A DNA stretch of 64,000 nucleotides from Ricordea florida (Eukaryota; Cnidaria; Anthozoa; Corallimorpharia; Ricordeidae). Below the pieces are notes generated by a model. The model did not search any database. It was not told the origin of the DNA and saw only the letters and a list, made by a program, of their open reading frames with translations. The stretch lies in NCBI GenBank assembly GCA_949710005.1, contig OX453278.1:3700001-3764000 (forward strand), written 5' to 3'. Both the position numbers and the translations under genes were made by a program. This document shows, piece by piece, positions 10,384-61,701 of this stretch (its first letter is position 1; the number at the start of each line of letters is the position of its first letter).

Positions 10384-10417
10384 GGCCCCTAAGACTAAAA
10401 TCTCGAGGAATTGAACG

Positions 10418-11317
10418 ATGGCATCGAACTCGTCGGCTCTGGCTCCGCCTGGCGACCTCTTTGAAGTAGAAGCAATTATTTTGGCGGTCGTCAATGTCAT
10501 ATTCAGTCTGCTGGGGCTTTTTGGCAACGTCCTTGTGTTTGTAGTGCTTTCTCGCAACCGCGCAGTTCGTGTTGTCTCCAACATGTTCATAGTGAGTTTG
10601 GCCATCGCCGATTTGCTGGCGTGCACTGTAGCTCAGCCGATGTACGCTGGCTTTTTGTTCGGATTACGGCGGATGCCCATCTATTCACAGGTTCGAAAGG
10701 CGTTTTCCTTCGTTTCGCTGTTGGCGTCCATTGGTAGTCTTTCTGCTGTGACGATTGACCGTTACATAGCCATAGCATCACCCATGAGCTACCAGCTCAG
10801 AGTTAAAGTAAAGAACGCTGCTGTCCTGCTCGTCTTCATTTGGCTCTTCTCTTTGGGTCTTGGCATTCCTTGTGGTGTTCTTCAGACCGTTCAGCACATT
10901 TCCGCGTACTACACGTTCGCGCACATTTTGGTCATCCTACCGTTGTACTTTCGAATCTACGTAATCGCCCGGAAACAAGCCCGTGCGATCGTCCGTCTAA
11001 CGAGACACATCAGGAAAGACTTGAGCACCAGGACTGAGAGAGAGAACATCGCTGCTAAGACAGTCGGCAACGTGCTGGCTGTGTTTGTGATCTGCTGGCT
11101 TCCACTCATTGTCCTGCCGATGATTTTTCGCCACAGCATGAACACTCGAACAATCAGACGGGCCCTGAAATGGTCCCAGACACTGGCTCTGTGTTCGTCC
11201 GCTGTTAATCCAGTAATCTACAGCCTCAAGACGCAGATATTCAGGAACGAGTTAGCTAAAATGTACCGAAACGTGGTTTGCCTAAGTTCGAGGGAAGAGA
11301 AACCTGAATGCTCGTAA
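10418..11317 (+). CDS. Class A (rhodopsin-like) G protein-coupled receptor, intronless
   Basis: Seven-transmembrane receptor of the plasma membrane, 299 residues in one exon. Hallmarks in order are an N-glycosylation site NSS at 4-6, TM1 with GN at 36-37, TM2 LAIADLL with Asp65, DRY at 114-116 ending TM3, and Trp142 in TM4. They continue with a basic third intracellular loop (KQARAIVRLTRHIRK), CWLP at 226-229 in TM6, and NPVIY at 264-268 in TM7 followed by a short tail. The first extracellular loop and start of TM3 lack the usual Cys3.25, and the second extracellular loop is very short without Cys. The conserved disulfide is therefore absent, as in melanocortin-type receptors. Ligand unknown: cnidarian genomes carry many such single-exon orphans. 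The ATG is the first in frame and follows a TATA-like box. The frame is intact. Confidence 0.9.
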   Translation: MASNSSALAPPGDLFEVEAIILAVVNVIFSLLGLFGNVLVFVVLSRNRAVRVVSNMFIVSLAIADLLACTVAQPMYAGFLFGLRRMPIYSQVRKAFSFVSLLASIGSLSAVTIDRYIAIASPMSYQLRVKVKNAAVLLVFIWLFSLGLGIPCGVLQTVQHISAYYTFAHILVILPLYFRIYVIARKQARAIVRLTRHIRKDLSTRTERENIAAKTVGNVLAVFVICWLPLIVLPMIFRHSMNTRTIRRALKWSQTLALCSSAVNPVIYSLKTQIFRNELAKMYRNVVCLSSREEKPECS

Positions 11318-11540
11318 TATGTCCTCGCCATTGCTGTTTTGCAACGCCCGCGTCTTCCACGCGAGCTAGGTGAGCTATGTATAAACAGAAGTTCCCTTTA
11401 CCAGGAAACTGAAAAAGTTACGACTTTTAAAAATGTACCGAAACGTGGTTTGTCTAAGTTCGAGGAAGGAGAAACCTGAAGCTATTTGATCTCGTAATAT
11501 GTCGTCACCAGTGGTCGGCAGCGTCTTCCACGCGAGCAAT
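11258..11540 (+). repeat. Partial tandem duplication of the GPCR 3' end
   Basis: The last coding codons and the 3' flank (from AAAATGTACCGAAACGTGGT at 11258 to the GTCTTCCACGCGAGC block near 11352) recur from about 11430 to 11536 with small differences, at an offset of roughly 172 bp. The second copy carries no intact receptor. Confidence 0.8.
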
Positions 11541-11741
11541 TCAATTCAATTCAGCAGTGGCCAACTCGAAAGCTTACAGCTCCTTTGGCCACTGCACACG
11601 ATACATCAGCAAAGTAATTCATCTCTTTTTTTTTTCCTTCTTCTATTTTTCCTTTTGGTTCATTTCAATACCTATACTGTAATTATATTTTTCTCTTGTA
11701 ATCGTCATGTAAAATAAAGATTGAATTGAATTGAATTGAAT
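11539..11741 (+). repeat. Short element with ATTCA/TGAAT inverted ends and AATAAA
   Basis: ATTCAATTCAATTCA at 11539-11553 is mirrored by (TTGAA)n at 11721-11741. A poly-T/C tract and AATAAA (11713-11718) lie between. A retroposed fragment with a TTGAA-repeat tail is one reading. The AATAAA could also serve as the GPCR polyadenylation signal. Confidence 0.45.
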
Positions 11742-12556
11742 CGTGAAATACGTCGACTGAATTCCTTAGTCTTTGTATAAATATCAAGGTAATAAATCTA
11801 AACTAGGGCGCTAGATGTAACCTACGGTTTATAAGGCAATCTGTGTACTAGTGATAACAGATTTTACTCTTGTCTTTCATTTGACTGGATATTTTACCTT
11901 TAATTAAACGTTATTTGAGCTAGACTTACATTGTCTGATACAAAAATATTTAGACGCGGTTTGTTATCCCTTTAATTCTCTCCGTGTTGTGACCGTGTAC
12001 ATTAAAAGAATCATTACAGAGCACCACGAGTGCCCGCTTGGCAAAATAAAGGCGTCCGCTTTGATATGATAACGCCTTTGAACCACACAGTTTGGATTTG
12101 ATATTCTGTCCCGCCTCTGAAACTGAGTATTTTCCACGGAATGTAAACAGCAAAATATTTCTAGTCTGTTCTGAGAGCAGAATGAACTCGGAAGACACTT
12201 CTCATCTCTCTCCTCCGCAGAGGTTCCCGGCGTTCGTTGTAAAAATCCGCTGGGTAAGGTGAGTGCAGGCGCAAAAGAACGAGATCCACTGAGTGGGGAA
12301 CCTCTGCCAGAAGCTTGTCGTTTTCTGGTACATTGATAAATTTCTCAGCCCTCGCGGACTTTGCGAGCTTGAAACTTGGCAAAAATCAGCGCTAGGTATG
12401 CTACTACAATTAGCAATCGTTATTTTCCAGACAACGTTACATATTTTCGAAAAAAAAAAAACAGCAATAATGTTGGTCTCCGAAGCCCCCCCCCCCGGAA
12501 CCTGGCTGAAACTATGGGGAGTAGTGACAAGCACGTTGGTTTTTGGAGGTCAAATG

Positions 12557-12568
12557 TCAAAATGGCGG
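12557..12568 (+). promoter_or_regulatory. TISU/YY1-like start context
   Basis: TCAAAATGGCGG surrounds the proposed start codon of the transposase-like gene. It resembles the TISU/YY1 consensus SAASATGGCGGC, which directs initiation on very short leaders. The match is imperfect. Confidence 0.4.
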
Positions 12569-12619
12569 AAGCAAGAGAGGAAGCGCTTGACATTTCCTTC
12601 GAACAGATGTCTCTTGAAG
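12562..12619 (+). pseudogene. Transposase-like gene, exon 1
   Basis: First coding exon (MAEAREEALDISFEQMSLE), ending in phase 1 at a GAAG|GTAAAT donor. The next exon begins at 13006 after TTGGTTTTTTAG and restores the frame with EPQKRQLTPSKG, so the 386-bp intron is well supported. The start was chosen as the first ATG in an open frame with a good context. This exon is intact, while downstream exons carry breaks. Confidence 0.65.
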
Positions 12620-13005
12620 GTAAATATTCCTCTTCTATGTCGTCTTTTTGTCTTTTATCCCTACTAGCTGCATTTCGTTTATTTCGGCCTTTAGTTCACT
12701 AACTTTACAAAGCCATAGCTTCGTTACAAACAAATCTGTCTCTCGGAAGTAACCCATGATTAAGCATATAAAAAGTTACACACCAACGATTTAAACTTTG
12801 AAAACTGTTCCGTCTACTAGTTTTTCAAAAATCGGTATCGCAGTCCGTTTCAATCTTATTTAATTTTTTTCTACATCCGGCCGTACCGCCTTTTGTATAT
12901 ATATGCTGCATTATTGAAATGCCCTGTTTTAAGTGCTTTTGGTGGCCATTTTGCCATGTGTAAATCCTTTAAACGAAAACCTCACAACCTCCTTTGGTTT
13001 TTTAG

Positions 13006-14364
13006 ATGAACCACAGAAAAGACAGTTAACACCATCGAAGGGTGAGCCCACCAGTAAACGTTCTCGACAGAATTTAAGTGGACGATTTTACAAGGAAAGG
13101 AAAGAAACGTTTTCTTCTGTTCTCCAAGAAAGGTTTGTGGAAAGTCCAGGGAAACAAGCCACACAAGAATCCATTCTCAGTGCTTTACAGTTAAACAAAG
13201 AAGAGAAAGGGCTGGCCACACGTGCTGTAACAAAAACATTCCCCTCTTCCAAATTAAATAAAAGAAAAGGGGTTTATACTAACATCAGAAAAGCAGTTTC
13301 TTTTAACTGTGAAGATGATAAATCAGGAACAGTTACTGTGGATAGTGAAATAGCTAATGTACAAGCCCTTATTGCTGAGTCAAGAAAAAGAGGAAATGAT
13401 CTTCTTTAGGATATAATTGCCAAGGTAACTGCTGGAGAGACTTATGCCTTGCAAGCACTTTTGTTGGCTTACAAAACGGAAACTGAATTGTTAACTGCAA
13501 AATCAGAATTACTTGACAAGATCTATGAGCGTGAAATTCAATTTTTAATGAGAACTGATCAGTCATCCACACTTTCTCAGTCAGAGAAAACAAAACTTAC
13601 AGAGGAGGTAGACTTGTTATCAAAAACATTAAGTTTTGGATTGAGAAGTGTTGAGGAAGTCTTTATCAATGAGGAGATTTTTACAGATCTTGTAAACAAT
13701 TTTGCAGAGAAGTTTCCCTTTCTCTTTGACATTGTTAAGACTCTCTTTCCAAGTGACGACAGGAGAAAGGAGCAGTTCACTCTCTAAGCCTATTAATGAG
13801 CCTGAGAAACAATTAGTGCCAAAATGATGTAACATTAGTTTTTACAATTCTTCTGGTTGCTTATGGAGCTGGTACACGAATGGTCAATATGCTGAATAAA
13901 GTTGGATTAACTCTTCACTGGGACTCTCTTATGTCATTCCTGGACAGGGACAACAGGAAAATGTTTGACAAACTGCACTCCAATATACCGGCAGAGAAAC
14001 CCTTGTTTTTGCTATTGGACAATGTGAACATTCACAGGGGATATCAAAGACACCATAGGTTGTTTAAGGTGCCCAAGGTGAACATGTGGAACTTCACTGT
14101 TAGAGGATTACTAAACCCAGACATTACTGGCATTGAAGATTTGTTGAGTACACCTGACACTTCACTGCAGAGCCAGGACAATGTGGTAGGGTGGAATGCT
14201 AACTATATACAATTGGAAAACTGTAATGAACATTTTTTAATTTGGCAGAAGTTCAGTAAAAGTCACATTCTCCAGTTGCTTTATGATGGATTGAACAAGA
14301 TTCCACCACATGAAAAACCCATTTGTGAATTGAATGAAAAACAATGTAACTAGTGGTTGTCAAA
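13006..14364 (+). pseudogene. Transposase-like gene, N-terminal and first catalytic part
   Basis: Exon 2 of the decayed gene. It begins with a charged Lys/Arg-rich region and a helical stretch (LTAKSELLDKIYEREIQFLM), and then reaches a conserved-looking block with VGLTLHWDS and LLLDNVNIHRG. The Asp of LLLDN is a candidate first catalytic residue. I relate the pattern (this block, then GDQGT, then PGDLH further on) to DUF6589-type transposase-like proteins from memory. Breaks seen are an in-frame TAG at 13407-13409, with the same frame continuing on both sides; a frameshift near 13790-13830; and a TAG at 14351-14353 just before the fold-back element that interrupts the exon. The family assignment needs a profile search. 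Confidence 0.55.
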
Positions 14365-16055
14365 TGTATCACCGCTAAATGTAATAACAACGCTAAATGT
14401 AATACCAACCGCAAATGTAATAAAAAATAACTCTAAATGTAATACTAACCGCAAATGTAATAAGAATCAACCCTAAATGTAATAACTTACTCAACCGTAA
14501 ATGTAATACAATTTAACACTAAATGTAATAAGTCGATCAACCGTAAATGTAATACAAATTAACCTCAAATGTAATAACACGTTATGCTCAAGCTTACTGT
14601 ATACTGTTAAGTATACTGTAAATATATGATCATATTACTGTAAATATATGATCATATATGACTGAGTATCATTGCTATCAAGTTTGTCTATTAAAGTTGT
14701 CTTTATATCATCTATACCATCTGTATATTTTTATCTGTTCTATCATAATACCCTCTTACCAAAATCTTTTGAACACACCCACAGCCCACTTTCAAAAAGA
14801 GTGTTCAACCCCGAAACGATCCCATAACTGAGCGCACGCCTTCTCTCGCCCAGGCTTCCACTATTTTCGAAAGTGGGCTAGGTAATTGTGCGATCCGCTG
14901 AAAAGAATTTCGAAAATGATGTTTGCAAATGCTCGACATCAGAAGGGCTATTTTCTTGGGAAATCTTCAGACGTTCCCAGATAAGCTTAGTGCCGTAGCA
15001 TGGGTAAAATAAGTGGGGGGGAGGGGGGTGGCACGCGAGCGCCGGAGCGCCGGAGCCCCCCCCCCCCCCCCTAGAAAATTTTGAAATCTAGCGTTCTCCA
15101 AGAGCTATTTGTGATTTACGCATATCACGAATTATTTACTTCCTGCACTGTCTCAGTAAACCAATGCACATTAAAGAGAGTATAACGCTTGCAACGACAA
15201 TTACAAAACAGAAAACCGACTGTCTCTGTATCTTGAAACGGCCCGGCCCCGCCCGGCCCCGTCCGGCCCCGTCCGGCCCCGCTCGGCCCCTCCCCTTGCT
15301 ACGGAAATGAAGCTTAGATCGGAACTAGGCAGAACCTTGACAATGTTTACAAAAAATCACCAAGACTTCAAGTAATGCCCGGTAACCGTAGGGGAGGTTT
15401 TAATACTGTTATTACATTTGAGGTTAACTTGTATTACATTTACGGTTGATCGACTTATTACATTTAGTGTTTGTTTCGTTGATTAGTATTAAGTTCGTTT
15501 ATTGACATTTGATTATTTAATTAGTCGCGTGATTGACAGCCGATGGCGTAATCGCTAAGAACCACGAAATCAGAGACAAAGGTCATAAAGCGTGTTATAC
15601 GTTACGTTGAACATCGCTAACCTGTAGTGTTTTACTGCTCGATCTGCTGACCCGTTTTGCTGACCTGTTACCGAAATAAGTTTGACTGGATATCGCTACA
15701 GAAGTAAGTGACCTTTTGTTTATGTAATCCGTTGAATTTAGAGTTATATTTTCCATGCAATTTCATGAATCGCTCGCTATTAGGTTTTTAAGAATTATGT
15801 ATCTTATGTATCTTCCTTATAGATCGAATAAAACAATATAAAGATTATACGATTCCGTATCCAGTCATTCGTCCGAGAACCATATTTTCCCCTGGACCAG
15901 TGTTAAATTGTATTACATTTACGGTTGGGTAAGTTATTACATTTAGGGTTGATTTTTGTTACATTTGCGGTTAGTATTACATTTAGAGTTATTTTTTGTT
16001 ACATTTACGGTTGGTATTACATTTAGCGTTGTTTCTTACATTTAGCGGTGATACA
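14365..16055. mobile_element. Fold-back DNA transposon with TAAATGTAATA arrays
   Basis: Non-autonomous element inserted in the transposase-like gene. Both ends carry the 20-bp perfect inverted repeat TGTATCACCGCTAAATGTAA and are flanked by GTCAAA (14359-14364 and 16056-16061), a 6-bp target-site duplication. About 200 bp at each end consist of a short motif array, (C)TAAATGTAATA with spacers, in opposite orientations (14371-14580; 15407-15471 plus 15905-16050). The interior has a G-run/C-run stretch (15015-15074) and a GGCCC(C)G array (15239-15296) but no coding frame. The right array is split by a solo LTR. A 6-bp duplication is reported for Dada- and IS3EU-type elements; the family remains open. 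Confidence 0.85.
15472..15899. repeat. Solo LTR, 428 bp
   Basis: Begins TGTTTCGTTG, ends CTGGACCA and is flanked by the 5-bp direct repeat GTGTT (15467-15471 and 15900-15904). Removing it and one GTGTT restores the motif array so that it mirrors the left arm of the host element. It contains GAATAAAAC, a possible polyadenylation signal. It is the product of LTR-LTR recombination of an unidentified LTR retrotransposon. Confidence 0.82.
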
Positions 16056-17809
16056 GTCAAATGCTGATGGTTGTACCCAACAGAATGTGAAACTGAGCAT
16101 TCCCAGTATTGAAAGCATTTTTGACACAAGTATTTCCACAGTGAAGACTGATGTTCACATATTACCTCTGTCATTCGAAAATAATGCAACCCTTACTGGA
16201 GCAAGTGTGATTCTAGATCAGTTTGCTGAGGAATTTGGCCTTTGCAATAAAGTGGACAAACTGGAAACATTGCCATTTGACAAAACGGACAGGAATTTCA
16301 GCCTTAAAAAAGCCAGGGAACATGTTGAGTTTTTAATCATGTTGTATGAACACAGAGATGAAATGGCTGACTTATTAAAAACCTTGGAGGCAACAGAAAA
16401 AGAATTTGACAGTTCTCAAGAGTTAACCACAGATGATGATGGTGATGATGAGCTTGCAGGTGATTCTGATGATGAAAATAGAACAACTATTCAGCAAGCT
16501 AAGAGTCGCTTTGCAAAGTGTGAGCAAGTTTTCACTGAGCTGTATAATAACATTGCAGATAAGGTGTGGGAATCTAAACAAAGTGATTCAGTGGAACATG
16601 TTATTCAAGACTTGAGCAACATTAACCTGCAGGATGTTAGAGACCATCTTGGCCGTACCTTGTTACATATGGCTGTGGAACAAGGAAACTATGACCTTGC
16701 TTGTTGTCTTACATGCATGCTGGCTGCAACCCAAATGCAAAAGAAATGTGTGGTGCAACACCTCTTGTAATAGCAGTGATAAAGAAAAACAAACAGGTCT
16801 GTGAACTTCTGGTTAATCACAGAGCTTGTGTGAGAGGGCCTTTGTTCACAAATATTCCATGCCCACTTAAAATTGCAGAGCAAATGCAACTAGCTGAAAT
16901 ATATGAAGTACTGAACCCACTTTAACGTCAGATATTGAGGATGATGACATATCAAGTTATGATGACTCCTTTAAGAGAACAGATATTTTGATCAGGGATG
17001 GATCTGATGAACCAGTATCACAGGTGGATCGTAACTCGGAAGGATTTGTTACAGGCTTAGTAGGAGATCAAGGCACCTGCAAAACTATCAGGGGAGTGAT
17101 GGGGAGAGCTTCAGCTTATGAGTGGGTAGGGATAATACCAGGTGATCTGCATACAAAAGGATACCTTTGTGAAGCCTGTTTTAAAGAACAAGGACCTGGT
17201 GGATTCCACTACATTGCAAACAAGGTAATGAAGAGACCAAAGCTCATTTCTGATGTTTTCAAGAAGAAAAAGTTTGAGACAGGAAATCAAGATCGAATCA
17301 AAGAAGCAGTGCAAGACTGTGCTAGGTCATATGGAATAGCTGCTGTAATTGAATTTGCTAAAAGTGACTGTTATCCAGGTCCAAGAGATTGGTCAGCTAG
17401 CCTCAGAAAGTCAGGGAACCACAATAATGTGCTATATGATGCATTCATTAAATAGATAGAGCAATCAAGTGAAAGGAATGTTGCTTTCAGGTACTATTCA
17501 AGAATGTTCCTGTACTATAAGCCTCTCCTTGAACTGTTTGACATCTCCACATATCACATGTTTTAGGCCAAGCAAGAGAGGTTTGCTATATTCTGCAGTT
17601 GCCCACTTATGCTCATTTGAATTTCAAGAACTATTTCACAGAAACATTTGCTCACGTTGTCAATTTTCTTGGAAATTGGCCTTTGGCATTCTGCAAGTTG
17701 CTTCAAAAGAATTGTGCAGTTAATCTTTCTGGAAAGAAAGAGGGAGCCATTGAATGGGATGCATTTGTGGAAGCTGAAATAGTTCAGCCACTCAAGATGT
17801 ATGTGTCAG
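16056..17809 (+). pseudogene. Transposase-like gene, middle part with ankyrin repeats
   Basis: Continuation after the fold-back insertion. An acidic region (TTDDDGDDELAGDSDDE) precedes about two ankyrin repeats (DHLGRTLLHMAVEQGNYDLA, then HAGCNPNAKEMCGATPLVIA), broken by a frameshift near 16710. After another shift near 16922 comes the block with [17 protein letters not shown] and [19 protein letters not shown]; the Asp residues of GDQGT and PGDLH are candidate catalytic residues. Further damage is an in-frame TAG at 17453-17455 and a frameshift near 17565. The exon ends in phase 1 at TCAG|GTAAGA (17809). Ankyrin repeats normally mediate protein contacts; their place between the proposed catalytic blocks is unusual. 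Confidence 0.6.
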
Positions 17810-18703
17810 GTAAGAGCAGTTCAGTTGTAATGATATGACAGGTGGTCCTGACCAACCAGCACAATAATATAATAATATAACAATAATATAATATAATATA
17901 TAACCAGCCCTAATCATATGGGACAATTGTCTGACGAAATTAATTCAAATTTGACACTCAGTTGAAGACACTTGATACTAAATGACTGGTCCTGAGGGAA
18001 AACAGTTAATTTTGTTCAAGGAAAACAAAGTTAACTAATTGATTTCCTAAGGGAGTAAGTGATTAGTTATAATTCATGATGGTACATAAGGATGGCCCTC
18101 AACATTTGCAGGCAAAGGTGTACTGTTACGCTCTGACGTCATGGATTTTGTAATGTTGCCCAGACTACAATGTATAGCAGGAAACAGTTTTATTGATACA
18201 TGTCATGCGACCTTAAGAGCATGTGTTGTTGGGGGAAATTTTCAGCTATGTAACAATTTTTGTCATGTTAACTTTTGTATTAAATTTCATATATTAGCTC
18301 ACAGGTCTAAAGATAAGCTGTGAATGAATTAAATAATCATATATATTTGCCAGTTTATAACAACTGGTTCATGCTTTAGTGTGCACTTATATGGAGGTAT
18401 TTGATTGCAAGCCTCTGCGAGCTATGTTATAAATAACTATCGTTATCATCATCAATCAAATACCTTACAAAAATGAATTCATTTGATTAAACTTTATTTT
18501 TGTGTAAAGATGGCCAAGCAAGGCACTCTCTTTTAATGTTGTGGACACCTATTGAACATGAAATATCAAAAAAAAAAAATTCTATCACTTAAAATGACTA
18601 GTCTTTAAGAAGTTGTCAGAACATTGTCATAGTATAGAGATTATTATAAATATGTAAAAAACCCTCACTTAATATGTAATATGTGTGTAATTTTCCGTTC
18701 TAG
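17810..18703 (+). other. Intron of the transposase-like gene
   Basis: GTAAGA donor at 17810 and TTCCGTTCTAG acceptor at 18701-18703 join phase 1 to phase 1 and continue the protein as YVSG|HTLVKM. The intron contains an (AATAT)n-type simple repeat at about 17863-17902. No gene was seen inside. Confidence 0.6.
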
Positions 18704-19392
18704 GACATACCTTGGTGAAGATGTGTGAAAGGATAATGTCTAGTATTGATCTGTTTAAAGCTGTCAGGAAAGCATATTCCTTCAAAGAAGGTTTTGATGA
18801 GCACACCACCCAAAGACATAATCTGTTCCAAACTCTTTCCTAGACCAGCTTAAAGGCATGTGGTTTTGCTTAAAAAATGGATTCTTCAATGGAGTTCAAT
18901 CAGATGACCCCCCTGATGTGTATGCTCTTGAAGGCAGTGGCAAACCAACAACTTAAAGTTCAAAAATGTCATTTGGATGTCAATGAGAAGGGCACCAAAA
19001 AGGTTGCAGAGAAATTCAAGGATAAGCTGTATGAATCCTTTCCTGACCTACACTTTGACCTTTTGACAAATTAAGTTTGAAAATTACAGTGTGAAGTTTT
19101 ACAATTATGAAAGTATTTATCCACTGCTTAAAAGGCTAACAAAGTGTAACATGAAGTACTCAATTGCCAAGTGTCTTTTACAGACAGAAAATGTGCAGTT
19201 CGAGAAAATATTCATGTACCCACTGAAGGTCATTACAAATTTGAGGGGATAAAAAACCTTCTGCAGGAGGGTATGGATATCTTCTGGAACAACACAATAA
19301 ATAGAGCCAATTGCAAGTCAGGAAGTCACACAATTAAGAATAATTATTTCTTAATTAAAGTTTTCCTCAAATTTTTTGAAGGTCAATTCTAG
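18704..19392 (+). pseudogene. Transposase-like gene, C-terminal part
   Basis: Reads HTLVKMCERIMSSIDLFKAV and on to FDEHTTQRHNLF. Stops and frame changes near 18841 and 18870 follow, then the segments MTPLMCMLLKAVANQQLKVQ and RENIHVPTEGHYKFEGI up to a TAG at 19390. The segments look coding, with conserved-style Cys and His residues, but are joined by several breaks. No domain was recognised. It converges on the helicase gene, whose stop is 490 bp away. Confidence 0.45.
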
Positions 19393-19879
19393 AAGCTATT
19401 CCTAGGTGCTCCTAGGTGTCAGATTGTTGGGACGGTGCAAATAATGAAGAATTGTGTACCAGTAGCCATTATAACCTTGGACCAAAGAAAACTTAGTTAT
19501 TAAAAGCTGACAACAGCAAACCCAGTCAATCACTCAGGATGTACTTTTTTGGTCTTTCGGGTATTTACATGAAATTATTGTCAGCTGTATGCATGACCCC
19601 AGGGGGATCATTAAAACAGTCATGGATACAAGTTCAGGATTTTTTGTGCTGCATTAACCCTTTAAGGCCCAAGTGTGATCAACTTCAAATTTCTCCTTGC
19701 AATATCAATATTAATTAAGTCAATCACCAAAGAGAAATTTTACCTTCAAGCTGAAACAAAAAATTCTCGTAACTGCAGAAACAGCAAATTGAAAGTGCAG
19801 AGATCAAGGAGAATTTGTATGTTGATTATGGGGTTTAAAGAGTTAAGCTTTTATGAGGCTAATTAGGTTTTAGTTCAGG

Positions 19880-21523
19880 TCAACATGTGTGATCCTGATA
19901 GTATGCCATTACATCACCAACAGTTAAGAGAATGTTGGAAGATGCTCCATCAATTTTCTCTTTGAGGAAACCTTTAAGAATAAGGCAGTATATGAATTTT
20001 ACCAACAGCTTTCTTCCTGGTAAAAATTCCTTAGCCTTGCAATAACTGGTAAGTTTTTACAAACCATTAGTTAAGATCTCAGCTGATGCAGATCCCATTA
20101 AAACTCGAGAAAGCAAAGTAACAGTCACTTTTCCATGGCCAAGTAGTGGCTGCATTTCTATCAGACAGTGGATGACAATTTTGGCAAGTTCTGTCTTGTC
20201 GCTTTGTATTTCCTCTGCTACAGGTCCTCTTGTGCACACATCACATGCCTCCTCACAAGGGATTGAATCATCTTCCCCAAAATATGATAGTAGACCCACT
20301 TGCCTACACACATTAGAGTTATAAAAGAAATAGCTGGATTGATTGAGTTTATTGTACCTTTCATTTCTGTTACCTTCATCTTGAATTTTGCTGATGTTAT
20401 GCAGATGAAAAGACCGGTTTTCAAATTTGAACAAAGCAATGCATGTTGCAGGATTTCTGTCTCTCCTAGCCCTGCCAATTTCCTGGTTATAGTCTTCAAG
20501 GCATTCTGGGAATATTAGGTGAATGACAAATCGTACATCTTCGTTATTGATTCCCATTCCAAAGCACTTTGTTGCACACATAACTTTGGCATTGCCATTG
20601 CTCCACAGTTCTTCATGTTTCTTTCTGTCAGTATCACTTAGGGTGCCATGGACATATGTGACACTTATGTTGTGTTTCTTTAGCTCTTGAGCCATGTCCA
20701 CTGCATCCTGACGCCTTGCACAGTAAACAATTCCACAACTATTCTGAAATTTCTCCTGTAGTATTGTGGCCACTTGTTTCTTTGCATTGTCTTTCTTTTC
20801 TTGCACTTCAATAAACAGGTTCTCTCTCATAAAAGATGTCTTGATTACAGTACACTGCTGGAGTTTTAAGCTGTTAATAACTACCTGCAAAGTATGGGGT
20901 GTTGCTGTTCCAGTAAAAGCTGCCATTGCAGTTCCAAACTTTTTTAGTTCTCCTAGTCTTGTGAAATCTGGTCTGAAGCCAACTCCCCAGGAATCGATTC
21001 AATGAGCTTCATCAATGGCAATGAAGGCCAGCCTGCTATTGCCTCTCCAGTTAGATAAGACATTTTGAAGTCTTCCATTAAAAATACATTCTGGACTAGT
21101 AAAAAGCATAACATATTGGGACCTAAACCGAGTAAGACTGTGAAATACAAAATCCATCTCTGTGTCTGTGAGTGAAGAGTTAAAGTAAAAGGCAGACACA
21201 CCTTTTTCCCTCAGAGCAGCAACCTGCTCTTCCATTAAAAATTTTAGAGGTTTAATAATGACAGTTAGACCTTGCTTAATTATGGAAGCAATAGTAAAAA
21301 TTAAGCTTTTGCCTCCCCCAGTAGGCATCAATATTACACAATCTTTGCCCTCGACTATGGCTTGGATGGCCTGTTGTTGTCCCTCACGGAAGGAATCATA
21401 TCCGAAAACTGTCTTCATGACATGGAGAGGTTCATCTTCTTTAGACACAGCATCTGGAACCCCTTGCATAATTCCAGCATGAACTGGCTGGGTTTCAGGT
21501 GCAGGAGTAGGTAGTGGACTTGC
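19880..21523 (-). pseudogene. RecQ-type SF2 DNA helicase, broken
   Basis: ATP-dependent 3'-5' DNA helicase of the RecQ family, reading leftwards. An acceptor (GTAGTTTCAG) precedes the first exon seen. Motifs in order: FREGQQQAIQAI (motif 0), MPTGGGKSL (Walker A), IDEAH (Walker B), AAFTGTATP (motif III), GIVYCARRQDAV (IV), KCFGMGINNEDVRFVIH (V), QEIGRARRD (VI, where GRAGRD is usual), four zinc-binding Cys, then a winged-helix RQC-like part to the TGA at 19880-19882. Two in-frame stops break it: a TGA right after DEAH (20999-21001), where RecQ proteins have Cys, and a TAA at 20057-20059. It is therefore inactive as read. Its location opposite a transposase-like gene suggests an element-borne helicase rather than a host RecQ. 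Confidence 0.82.
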
Positions 21524-22189
21524 CTGAAACTACAATTTAAATAGCAGACAAAAGATTATGTTTGCCACATGAAGCAGTTCTTTTGAAGATGGTGAAGGCA
21601 TTTTTAGGGGGGGGGGGCATGGCAGTGGCTGATTTCAACAAGAAAATTGGCCAAAAAGAATAGAATATATCTGGGCAAACAGAGGTTAATTTTAATTAAT
21701 TTGCTGGTCAATGTTCTCCTGTTATCAGTGAATTGTAACACATAGGTAATGAGAATTAAAGAGATGATCGCCAATGATGAATATTTACTTATGTCTTGAT
21801 GTGTATACAAGTTCTCCCAACTAGTACTCATGAAAATGTTTGAGACCAGTAAGGATAATTTGTGAAATGGTGTTTTTTAATTTCTTTAAAAGTACGTCTT
21901 AATTTTAAATACTAGTGTTAGGATAGAATTTTACAGCACTCACCCATGGGAGTCAGAAAATAATCTTGTCTTTATGGGTAAAAATTGTATGTTTTAGGTG
22001 CAGTTCTGAAAGTCTCAAAATTCTACTCTGCATGTGTATGCTAATTTAGTTAATAGTTAAAATGAAAGAATAAAAATTTAAAACATCCAACAACAAACAG
22101 AATGCATTGGTTTATTCTATGGTATGTCTTTCATATTTTCATCCACAATTAAATTTGGAGTGGGACAGACAATTACCCCATTTATCTTT

Positions 22190-22440
22190 CTAGCTACCTT
22201 TTTATGAAACGACTGGCTTCTGCATAGATTTTTTCCTTATTTCGCCACAAGGCAAATGTTGACTCCAACCACTTGTTCTTCACGGCAACTGTTACAGGTT
22301 TATTTCCAGCCTCCAGCCAGTTCAATACTCCTTTATGCCAAAGGTATTAAGGCCAAACAGCTTTGCTGCCTCTTTCTCGTGTGTTGCCACTTAAAGGCAA
22401 AACATTCATCATTGAATTCAATGGTGAATGATTCATAATG
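22190..22440 (-). pseudogene. Possible HTH DNA-binding remnant upstream of the helicase
   Basis: The minus strand reads FTIEFNDECFAFK, then after a frameshift THEKEAAKLFGLNTFGIK, then after another GVLNWLEAGNKPVTVAVKNK and on to EASRFIKR and a stop. The spacing of aromatic, AAK-FG and Trp positions recalls brinker/pogo-like helix-turn-helix domains. It could be a 5' exon of the helicase or a third gene of the element. Confidence 0.3.
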
Positions 22441-23075
22441 AGCTGAATTCTGGATTGTTATAGAAGACAGGTGATCAGCGAGTTTAATAATGCAACGTTA
22501 AAGATGAAAATTATTGAAGTTGAAGTTATAAAATGTGACTGTTAAGTATTTTTGGTGTTTGTGCAATAAAATAATAAATGGAATAGTTTATAAGTTTTCA
22601 AGGGGATTTCGAGAAAATAAAGACTATTTACAAGACTGAATCTGACACATCAACGAATCAACCATTCCTGAGCTTTATTTAAAACAAGAAAACAGGAAAT
22701 TTAATACATATATCTTACATGTGGTATTTTTGTGCTGCTTTTAAGAGAATATTTTGGTACGGATTGTTGTTTATACACGAAAAGCCTTTCAACTGAAGCT
22801 TAAATTTATCGAATTTGATTTTTCTGCTGAACAGAAAGCTCCTTTTTACAGCAATATTTTTCTTACAGGAAATATATCAGCGATTTGATCGAGTACATTT
22901 CAAAATACACATGAAAAACATTTATTTGGTCGAGGAAAAATATAACCTAATAAGCTTAGTTTAGCAGCACTGCAAGGAAATTTCGTACTCGACAATCAAT
23001 GAATTTAACAACACTTCAAAGAAAACTCACTTGTTCTCTTCTCTTTTGAGACAGACTCAATAAGTTGTTCAGAGT
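22441..23075. other. Gene-free A/T-rich stretch
   Basis: No coding or structured feature recognised. The right end of the putative large transposon probably lies in this interval or just to its left. Confidence 0.5.
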
Positions 23076-23605
23076 GAACAGTGCTGTACCGTGGTAATGT
23101 TTTTCACTATACAGTGTGGTTCTAACGTTTTCATCTGTGGATCAAACCATACGGTGTGACCATTCTTTGGAAAGCTACTGAACAGTGCTGTACCGTGGTA
23201 ATGTTTGTTTCACTCTACAGTGTGGTTCTAACGTTTTCATCTGTGGATCAAACCATGCAGTGTGACCATTTTTTGTAAAGCTACTGAACAGTACTGTACC
23301 GTGGTACTGTTTGTTTTACTATACAGTGTGGCTCTAACGTTTTCATCTCTGGATCAAAACATGAAGAGTGCATGCCATTCTTTAGAAAGGTACTGAACAG
23401 TACTGTACTGTGGTACTGTTTGTTTTACTATACAGTGTGGTTCTAACTTTTTCATCTGTGGATCAAACCATGCAGTGTGGCTATTCTTTGTAAAGTTACT
23501 GAACAGTACTGTACTGTAATACCGTTTGTTTTACTATACAGTGTGGTTGTAACATTTTCGTCTGTGGATCAAACCATGCAGTGTGATCATTCAGTGTGAT
23601 AACGT
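23076..23605. repeat. 106-bp satellite array A (5 copies)
   Basis: Units begin GAACAGTRCTGTAC at 23076, 23180, 23286, 23395 and 23501 (period 104-109). Each contains CTATACAGTGTGGTTCTAAC and GTGGATCAAACCATGCAGTG. The same unit forms array B inside the Cys-loop receptor gene at 60886-61350. Confidence 0.92.
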
Positions 23606-60700: not shown

Positions 60701-61701
60701 TACCTACTACTGTGCCTCATCTTTGTGTTTGGTTCTATATTGGAGTACACGTTTGTCGCTTACATGATCACCATACGGACAAGAAACAAACGAAAGACGC
60801 TATTAGATGGGGAGTGGAGTACTTCCTCCAAGGTGAGCTCGTCCTGTTAATATCATCTATAAACTGTACCAGGGGCTCCTGACTTTACTGTGGTACTGTT
60901 TGTTTTACTATACAGTGTGGTTCTAACTTTTTCATTTGTGGATCAAACCATGCAGTGTGACCATTCTTTGTAAAGCTACTGAACAGTACTGTACTGTGGT
61001 ACTGTTTGTTTTACTATACAGTGTGGTTCTAACTTTTTCATTTGTGGATCAAACCATGCAGTGTGATCATTCTTTGTAAAGCTACTGAACAGTACTGTAC
61101 TGTGGTACTGTTTGTTTTACTATACAGTGTGGTTCTAACTTTTTCATTTGTGGATCAAACCATGCAGTGTGACCATTCTTTGGAAAGCTACTGAACAGTA
61201 CTGTACTGTGGTACTGTTTGTTTTACCATACAGTGTGGTTCTAACTTTTTCATCTGTGGATCAAACCATGCAGTGTGACAATTCTTTGGAAAGCTACTGA
61301 ACAGTACTGTACTATGATACTGTTTGTTTCCCATTCAATGTGGTTCTAACTTTATCTTCTGTGATTATGACTCCATGTGTGATCTATTCTCTGGTCTCTC
61401 CCATCTAACTAAATCATACCTGACCATATTTTCGGTTGCTATGCAGGAGGATAAGACGGAGCTGCTCTCCGTATTTGAACCAAAGTGTTCTCCGAGAAGA
61501 GGAAACGTCCTGAAGCGGGTGTTTGGCCCCCCTGAGACCGAGGCGTTGTCTCCAGAGGATTCAATCACGCCCAAACAAGCCAATCAAGTGTGGCACTTGA
61601 TAAGCGACCCCCTGTCAATCGACAGGTGCTCCCGAGTTGGCTTTCCATTGGCGTTTTTTGCATTTAACTGTATCTATTGGCTCGTGTTTGGGAAAGTGTG
61701 A
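57703..61701 (+). CDS. Cys-loop ligand-gated anion channel (glycine/GABA-A receptor class)
   Basis: Pentameric ligand-gated chloride channel subunit of the plasma membrane. Exons: 57703-57797, 58186-58253, 58832-59058, 59188-59270, 59826-59972, 60459-60832 and 61447-61701 (TGA). All have GT/AG borders and matching phases. The ATG at 57710 gives 413 residues, but a signal-peptide exon upstream is expected because the mature N terminus starts here ([20 protein letters not shown]). Visible are [18 protein letters not shown] and the Cys-loop, C135 to C149 (13 residues between). M1 spans about 222-244. M2 reads [16 protein letters not shown] with the Pro-Ala-Arg anion-selectivity signature. KVSYVKAID follows as in glycine receptors, then M3, and M4 ends in [10 protein letters not shown]. 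The ligand cannot be read off. Introns carry a SINE, a hexanucleotide array and the 106-bp satellite. Frame intact. Confidence 0.94.
59290..59560 (+). mobile_element. SINE-family copy in the receptor intron (dimeric)
   Basis: Contains the GCACGGGTGACTCTGTGATT and ATCCAGGGTGGAGTAACAAT blocks twice, in opposite orientation to the copy at 62200-62535. The tRNA-like head is missing, so it is a fragment. Confidence 0.7.
60098..60260. repeat. (AACGGT/AACGAT)n hexanucleotide array
   Basis: About 26 units of AACGGT, AACAAT and AACGAT variants in the intron between receptor exons 5 and 6. Confidence 0.93.
60886..61350. repeat. 106-bp satellite array B (4-5 copies)
   Basis: Units begin GAACAGTACTGTAC at 60981, 61087, 61193 and 61299, with an exact 106-bp period plus a partial first unit. 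They are nearly identical to each other and the same family as array A at 23076-23605. The array lies in the last intron of the receptor gene. Confidence 0.94.

Follow-up and report, generated by a model that had tools for sequence, protein, structure and literature searches.

Do a transposase-like gene and a RecQ-type helicase gene that face each other in the genome of the corallimorpharian Ricordea florida belong to a single mobile element, or do they simply lie side by side? Both are found in a 64,000-bp stretch (C7:3700001-3764000, hereafter the window) of a genome searched over 538 Mb in 48 contigs. An earlier examination of this stretch from its letters alone (hereafter the sequence-only reading) had described a spliced plus-strand gene convergent with a minus-strand helicase gene, both of them decayed, and had proposed that the pair is a relic of the AcademH lineage of transposons or of a sister group. 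The analysis presented here indicates that window positions 12206-23075 very probably represent a decayed copy of one large AcademH-type DNA transposon, whose transposase lineage carries an ankyrin module between two motifs, DN and GDQ. The AcademH-type features of the element are a DUF6589 transposase, a facing RecQ helicase, short terminal inverted repeats and 9- or 10-bp target duplications, AcademH itself having been matched through its second-hand description.

Ends, copies and recurrence of the element

When window positions 11500-23000 were searched against the genome at the DNA level, two internal-deletion derivatives were retrieved, L072 on C14 and L071 on C5. L072, in which window positions 12203-12563 are joined to 22664-23075 (95.6% and 88.4% identity), is complete: it spans 1,180 bp, has a terminal repeat at either end and is flanked by a 9-bp duplication. 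L071, which joins 12206-13548 to 21550-23075 (95.2% and 96.9% identity), has the left terminus, and its homology with the C14 copy stops about 93 bp before the right terminus is reached. Both derivatives extend past 23075 and both contain exon 1 of the helicase gene. They join the two outer end regions of the window locus, and are most simply read as coming from one mobile unit whose ends enclose the two genes. The extent first proposed for it, 12562 to 22440, proved too narrow and was dismissed: the left terminus lies at 12206, as marked by the terminal repeat, and homology with L071 and L072 runs to 23075, where the window copy is broken on its right side by a tandem repeat. The parts lying outside the two genes are as follows.

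12197..12205, no strand: flank ACTTCTCAT, the expected left copy of a 9-bp target duplication, judging from the duplications of the other copies
12206..12223, plus strand: left terminal inverted repeat CTCTCTCCTCCGCAGAGG, the left end of the element, where the homology of the derivatives begins
12217..12308, no strand: inner inverted repeat GCAGAGGTTCCC / GGGGAACCTCTGCC adjoining the terminus, as read from the sequence
14365..16055, no strand: nested 1.69-kb element inside transposase exon 2, with its own terminal repeats and GTCAAA on each side; related stretches occur elsewhere
23075..23592, no strand: tandem repeat with a unit of about 105 bp, where the element is cut off and homology with L071 and L072 ends

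The terminal repeat is 18 bp long, and its left copy alone is present in the window, where CTCTCTCCTCCGCAGAGG at 12206..12223 is the sole match (3 or fewer mismatches; 0 expected). A search of the genome with the terminal pattern CTCTCTCCTCCRCAGAGG, allowing one mismatch at most, gave 38 sites, against 0 for the reversed control. These sites resolve into 13 inverted pairs less than 12 kb apart, with spans of 91 to 10,926 bp, and 12 single sites. Shared termini flanked by a target-site duplication, which the sequence-only reading had suggested looking for, were found at all 13 pairs: nine duplications are of 9 bp and exact, three of 10 bp and exact, and one of 10 bp with a mismatch (L076), while the best of 156 cross-pair controls shares 6 of 9 bases. 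One of the copies, on C13, encloses parts of both genes within 10,263 bp, between two termini and a 9-bp duplication, ATAAGATCG; a transposase frame of 730 amino acids (aa) there faces a helicase frame of 554 aa.

The two genes also recur together across the genome. The Pfam family DUF6589 was matched at 103 or more places (101 after merging, the window copy not being among them) and the window helicase at 88 or more (85 after merging), both lists being lower bounds because just the best candidates were scored. A RecQ match lies within 15 kb of 31 of the 101 DUF6589 places, and the two are convergent in every one of the 31 pairs. Within the lineage of the window element, the transposase piece 13817-14350 was found at 10 genome places in seven loci, the window included, and at five of these (the window, C13, C1, C12:20.6 Mb and C14) it is faced by a helicase belonging to the window helicase's clade (see below), the two lying about 17 kb apart on C14. 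Co-occurrence at unrelated loci was what the sequence-only reading had proposed to look for, its absence everywhere else being held to speak against a single element; it is seen at 5 of the 7 loci of the lineage and at 31 of the 101 DUF6589 places.

Chance adjacency of a DUF6589 transposon to a RecQ gene, whether of the host or of other origin, would explain why 70 of the 101 DUF6589 places have no RecQ match within 15 kb. Random placement (500 runs), however, yielded 0.56 DUF6589-RecQ pairs on average and never more than 4, against the 31 observed with their uniform convergence; in the C14 derivative the two outer ends occur together with one target duplication, and the C13 copy holds both genes within one target duplication. 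Chance neighbourhood is thus so improbable that we reject it. Besides the 70 unpaired places, a number of observations weigh against the single-transposon reading. Two of the seven loci with the transposase piece (C15:11.27 Mb and C3:8.03 Mb) have no helicase match, and near three of the eight helicases of the window clade (C12:11.04 Mb, C3:37.5 Mb and C8:18.4 Mb) no transposase piece was seen. In the C13 copy the transposase is missing its C-terminal half, and exon 1 is interrupted by a stop. Neither gene was detected by five protein or family searches in the pair at C15:9197568-9208493 (10,926 bp, with a 9-bp duplication), which is perhaps a non-autonomous copy carrying other DNA. Lastly, the window copy has lost its right terminus and its own target duplication therefore cannot be seen; ACTTCTCAT occurs as a single copy in the window, with no right copy.

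Two stretches within or next to these limits were dismissed as parts of the transposon. The nested element at 14365-16055, the terminal repeats of which are made of AAATGTAAT-type units, was set aside because copies are found elsewhere, a stretch of about 430 bp (~15471-15899) having given 22 further genome matches in the DNA search described above. The tandem repeat starting at 23075 was set aside because it recurs at window positions 60883-61363. Immediately left of the transposon, at 10415-11317, the window contains an open 300-aa frame for a rhodopsin-type G-protein-coupled receptor.

The transposase and its ankyrin module

Plus-strand frame pieces from 12562 to about 19070 resemble a spliced gene, in which all three blocks pointed out by the sequence-only reading can be read: LLLDNVN at 14009-14029, GDQGT at 17063-17077 and PGDLH at 17138-17152. 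Pfam matches of these pieces to DUF6589 are collinear with the profile (positions 59-99, E 0.02; 103-193, E 0.21; 300-367, E 9.1e-7), the last alone being over the cut-off; the frame pieces 12933-13406, 13410-13784 and 13817-14350 gave no DUF6589 match in Pfam. The parts of the gene are listed below.

12562..12619, plus strand: probable exon 1 (MAEAREEALDISFEQMSLE), with GT at 12620; read from the sequence, with a counterpart (MAEAGEDL..) recognized by eye near the left end of the C13 copy
13006..14364, plus strand: first part of exon 2, with LLLDNVN, a TAG at 13407 and a break near 13785-13843; relative at C13:16198375 (E 2.2e-32)
16056..16767, plus strand: second part of exon 2, with the start of the ankyrin repeats (Ank_4 E 0.002, below cut-off); relatives at five other loci
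16642..16922, plus strand: ankyrin module, with a frame change near 16715-16725; 51-56% identity to the C12, C1 and C13 segments
16907..17452, plus strand: catalytic part with GDQGT and PGDLH; weak match to DUF6589 103-193, and a C12 relative with 47% identity (E 2e-32)
17542..17835, plus strand: C-terminal DUF6589 part, with NYFTE at 17629; DUF6589 300-367 (E 9.1e-7)
18703..19070, plus strand: probable last transposase exon, with stops; likeness to an exon of the C1 copy, by eye

The decay reported earlier for both genes could be mapped, on the transposase side, to a TAG at 13407-13409, frame breaks near 13785-13843, 16715-16725 and 16922, and the insertion of the nested element at 14365-16055. 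A relative on C12 has a single open frame of 701 aa, which runs from an ILPLS block through the ankyrin repeats and the GDQGT and PGDLH motifs to the C-terminal part; the later portion of this frame, in L038, matches both DUF6589 (E 7.5e-14) and Ank_2 (E 3.4e-9). Given that the helicase is the sole other gene found, we infer that the DUF6589 protein is the transposase of the element. The acidic residues of DN (D), GDQ (D) and NYxTE (E) are present in the copies where these parts were readable.

The ankyrin module follows the DN motif and precedes GDQ; in the DUF6589 profile this site falls between positions 99 and 103. Pairwise identity among the segments of the window, C12, C1 and C13 (the last one partial) ranges from 46 to 56% over all six comparisons, and the fact that the module was kept despite such divergence suggests its retention under selection. 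No ankyrin match was obtained in any of the six site-spanning frames of other DUF6589 families (L002, L006, L009, L015, L017 and L020), L002 and L006 being close kin; three more frames (L027, L028 and L029) begin past the ankyrin site and are uninformative there. Nothing on an ankyrin module in Academ transposases turned up in the literature passages and listings covered, and the original description of AcademH may contain one.

Searching L001-L030, among them other DUF6589 loci, with the window pieces by tblastn gave no match at E<=1. L001-L026 represent other DUF6589 families, with copies about 99% identical and open frames of about 610 aa; such near-identity and open frames are suggestive of families that may have moved recently. 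L027-L029 are DUF6589 frames in which a C2H2-like segment (CRFPGC..H..H) was recognized by eye as inserted in the domain.

The helicase and its two clades

The minus-strand gene is RecQ-like, matching human BLM in the PDB with E 2e-71, and the DEAD, Helicase_C and RecQ_Zn domains of the window helicase all score over their Pfam cut-offs, which bears out its earlier description as a RecQ-family helicase facing the transposase. RQC is weak in the window helicase (E 0.0076) and clear in the C13 relative (E 1.2e-7). The ankyrin module and RQC had been singled out as additions of note if conserved in other copies, and other copies have both. The parts of the gene are given from the N-terminal remnant onwards.

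23020..23075, minus strand: remnant of helicase exon 1, the full exon surviving in L071 and L072
22190..22440, minus strand: probable middle exon, in two frames; counterparts in C13 and C1, by eye
20060..21529, minus strand: RecQ helicase core and zinc-binding domain, with one TGA at 20999-21001; Pfam and PDB match
19880..20056, minus strand: probable end of the RQC region, past the TAA at 20057; likeness to the C-terminus of the C13 helicase, by eye

The lesions of this gene are the TGA at 20999-21001 and a TAA at 20057-20059. Pfam yielded nothing over cut-off in exon 1 (three copies) or in the middle exon (two copies, C13 and C1).

In a first tree of 18 sequences, from which the weaker matches of the window helicase were mostly left off, the window helicase groups with those of C13 and C12:11.04 Mb (support 98/98) and, together with those of C14, C3, C1, C12:20.6 Mb and C8:18.4 Mb, in one clade (99/99). 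This clade is separate from BLM, WRN and Deinococcus RecQ in the first tree (99/99) as well as in a second one (100/100), and the window helicase is 36-41% identical to members of its own clade, against 34-35% to BLM and Deinococcus RecQ. Element and cellular helicases (BLM, WRN, bacterial RecQ) have in common the helicase core, the zinc-binding domain and, in the C13 copy, RQC, and differ in that the former make up a clade of their own. A firm grouping with host RecQ orthologues, which the sequence-only reading had regarded as fatal to its proposal, was not what we found: the window helicase groups with the helicases of other copies. A host RecQ orthologue was accordingly rejected, the cellular references being BLM, WRN and one bacterial RecQ only.

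A second clade is made up of helicases found beside other DUF6589 copies, three sequences in the first tree (100/100) and five in the second (98/96), where WRN stands next to it (100/98). The second tree has 15 rows, five rows of the first having been dropped and two added, one of which is without its N-terminal half (the stretch reads N). A single clade of both helicase sets was rejected in the 15-row tree by the approximately unbiased (AU) test (p 0.004 in both test forms). Because the two sets were defined in the light of the first tree, and because of the three cellular references, the changed rows and the half-length row, we regard the split as a lead and not as a result.

Two readings of this lead are considered. 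The two clades may share one origin, their split being a long-branch artefact and the ankyrin lineage an old branch of one AcademH stock; this reading, which can hold alongside that of the window element as a single AcademH-type transposon, has in our view not quite an even chance. The small set of three cellular RecQs, the long branches, the row reduced to its C-terminal half and the post-hoc grouping speak for it, whereas the AU test speaks against it, as do the domains, RecQ_Zn and RQC being clear in C13 while two scanned helicases of the second set (L044 and L045) have no RQC and RecQ_Zn is just weakly matched in L045 alone (E 0.002). Alternatively, and put forward tentatively as possible, two or more captures of RecQ helicases by DUF6589 (Academ-type) transposons took place, the gene ending up convergent with the transposase on every occasion. 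One capture would have brought a BLM/RecQ-like enzyme with RQC into the lineage whose transposase also gained the ankyrin module inside its catalytic region, and another a more divergent RecQ-like enzyme.

We note some further helicase frames. L039, L040 and L042 (on C8, C5 and C1) have long open frames of up to 1,979 aa, with identical first residues in the fetched stretch; in L039 a protein-kinase match is joined to a RecQ-like helicase with weak RQC. The frame L037 871-2586 (C8:18.37 Mb) encodes a RecQ-like helicase whose C-terminus matches the Viral_alk_exo nuclease family (E 2.4e-7). A scan of viral contigs with alignment A1 gave no relative.

Relation to known transposons and proposed mechanism

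The AcademH lineage of the Academ superfamily is said to have been described by Kojima in Mob DNA in 2020. We take DUF6589 to be the Academ transposase, and XPG_I to be the nuclease family expected of AcademX, another kind of Academ element; the target duplication of Kolobok transposons is TTAA. XPG_I was found at seven genome places, none of them within 15 kb of a DUF6589 place when the lists were compared by eye. The window transposase and L038, as candidate Academ-type transposases, match DUF6589, and a literature search linking Academ with DUF6589 found nothing; that the assignment to AcademH is made by description, and not by a match of DUF6589 to a reference Academ transposase, adds to the points counting against our interpretation.

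According to one report (PMC10045372), AcademH has a helicase and duplications of 9 or 10 bp, and AcademX, of the same superfamily, has a nuclease in place of the helicase and duplications of 3 or 4 bp, neither of which is a trait of the present element. Two other papers credit DEAD and Helicase_C domains in fungi to AcademH, KolobokH or Helitron (PMC10799480) and describe DEAD/DEAH domains as carried by fungal Academ copies (PMC6416283). The element resembles AcademH in combining a transposase with a helicase, in its DEAD and Helicase_C domains, its terminal inverted repeats and the lack of an XPG-type nuclease nearby, and its 9- or 10-bp duplications equal those published for AcademH, which indicates that lineage. 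So far as AcademH is known second-hand, the ankyrin module inside the transposase is a difference, and a RecQ-type helicase with RQC may be another. The original proposal of an AcademH relic or sister group is supported, at the level of a second-hand description of AcademH.

The same architecture with another transposase, as in KolobokH or a further helicase-bearing superfamily outside Academ, is very unlikely. KolobokH, which comes closest after AcademH, is likewise a DNA transposon encoding a RecQ helicase, and in one Kolobok from a rhodophyte RecQ lies on the complementary strand (PMC9587614). KolobokH belongs, however, to another transposase superfamily, and the 9- and 10-bp duplications found here fit AcademH. 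None of the 13 target duplications is the TTAA of Kolobok.

We propose that in an intact AcademH-type element of this kind the DUF6589 protein would bind the terminal repeats and cut and join DNA as a DDD/E-type enzyme, with likely catalytic residues in its DN (D), GDQ (D) and NYxTE (E) motifs; this putative role rests on motifs, which likewise tells against our interpretation. The cut would be staggered by 9-10 bp. The RecQ protein may unwind DNA at the ends or at a strand-transfer intermediate or product, or may aid gap repair, and the ankyrin module may bind a protein partner, perhaps the helicase, a second transposase molecule or a factor supplied by the host.

The element offers a clear case, termini and target duplications included, of RecQ helicase retention by a DNA transposon, and of a transposase in which an ankyrin module, a common protein-binding fold, is kept between two likely catalytic motifs. 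Two captures, if true, would point to a recurrent requirement of such transposases for a RecQ-type helicase; if the two helicase clades do go back to independent captures, whether transposition of this kind depends on a helicase becomes a question open to testing.

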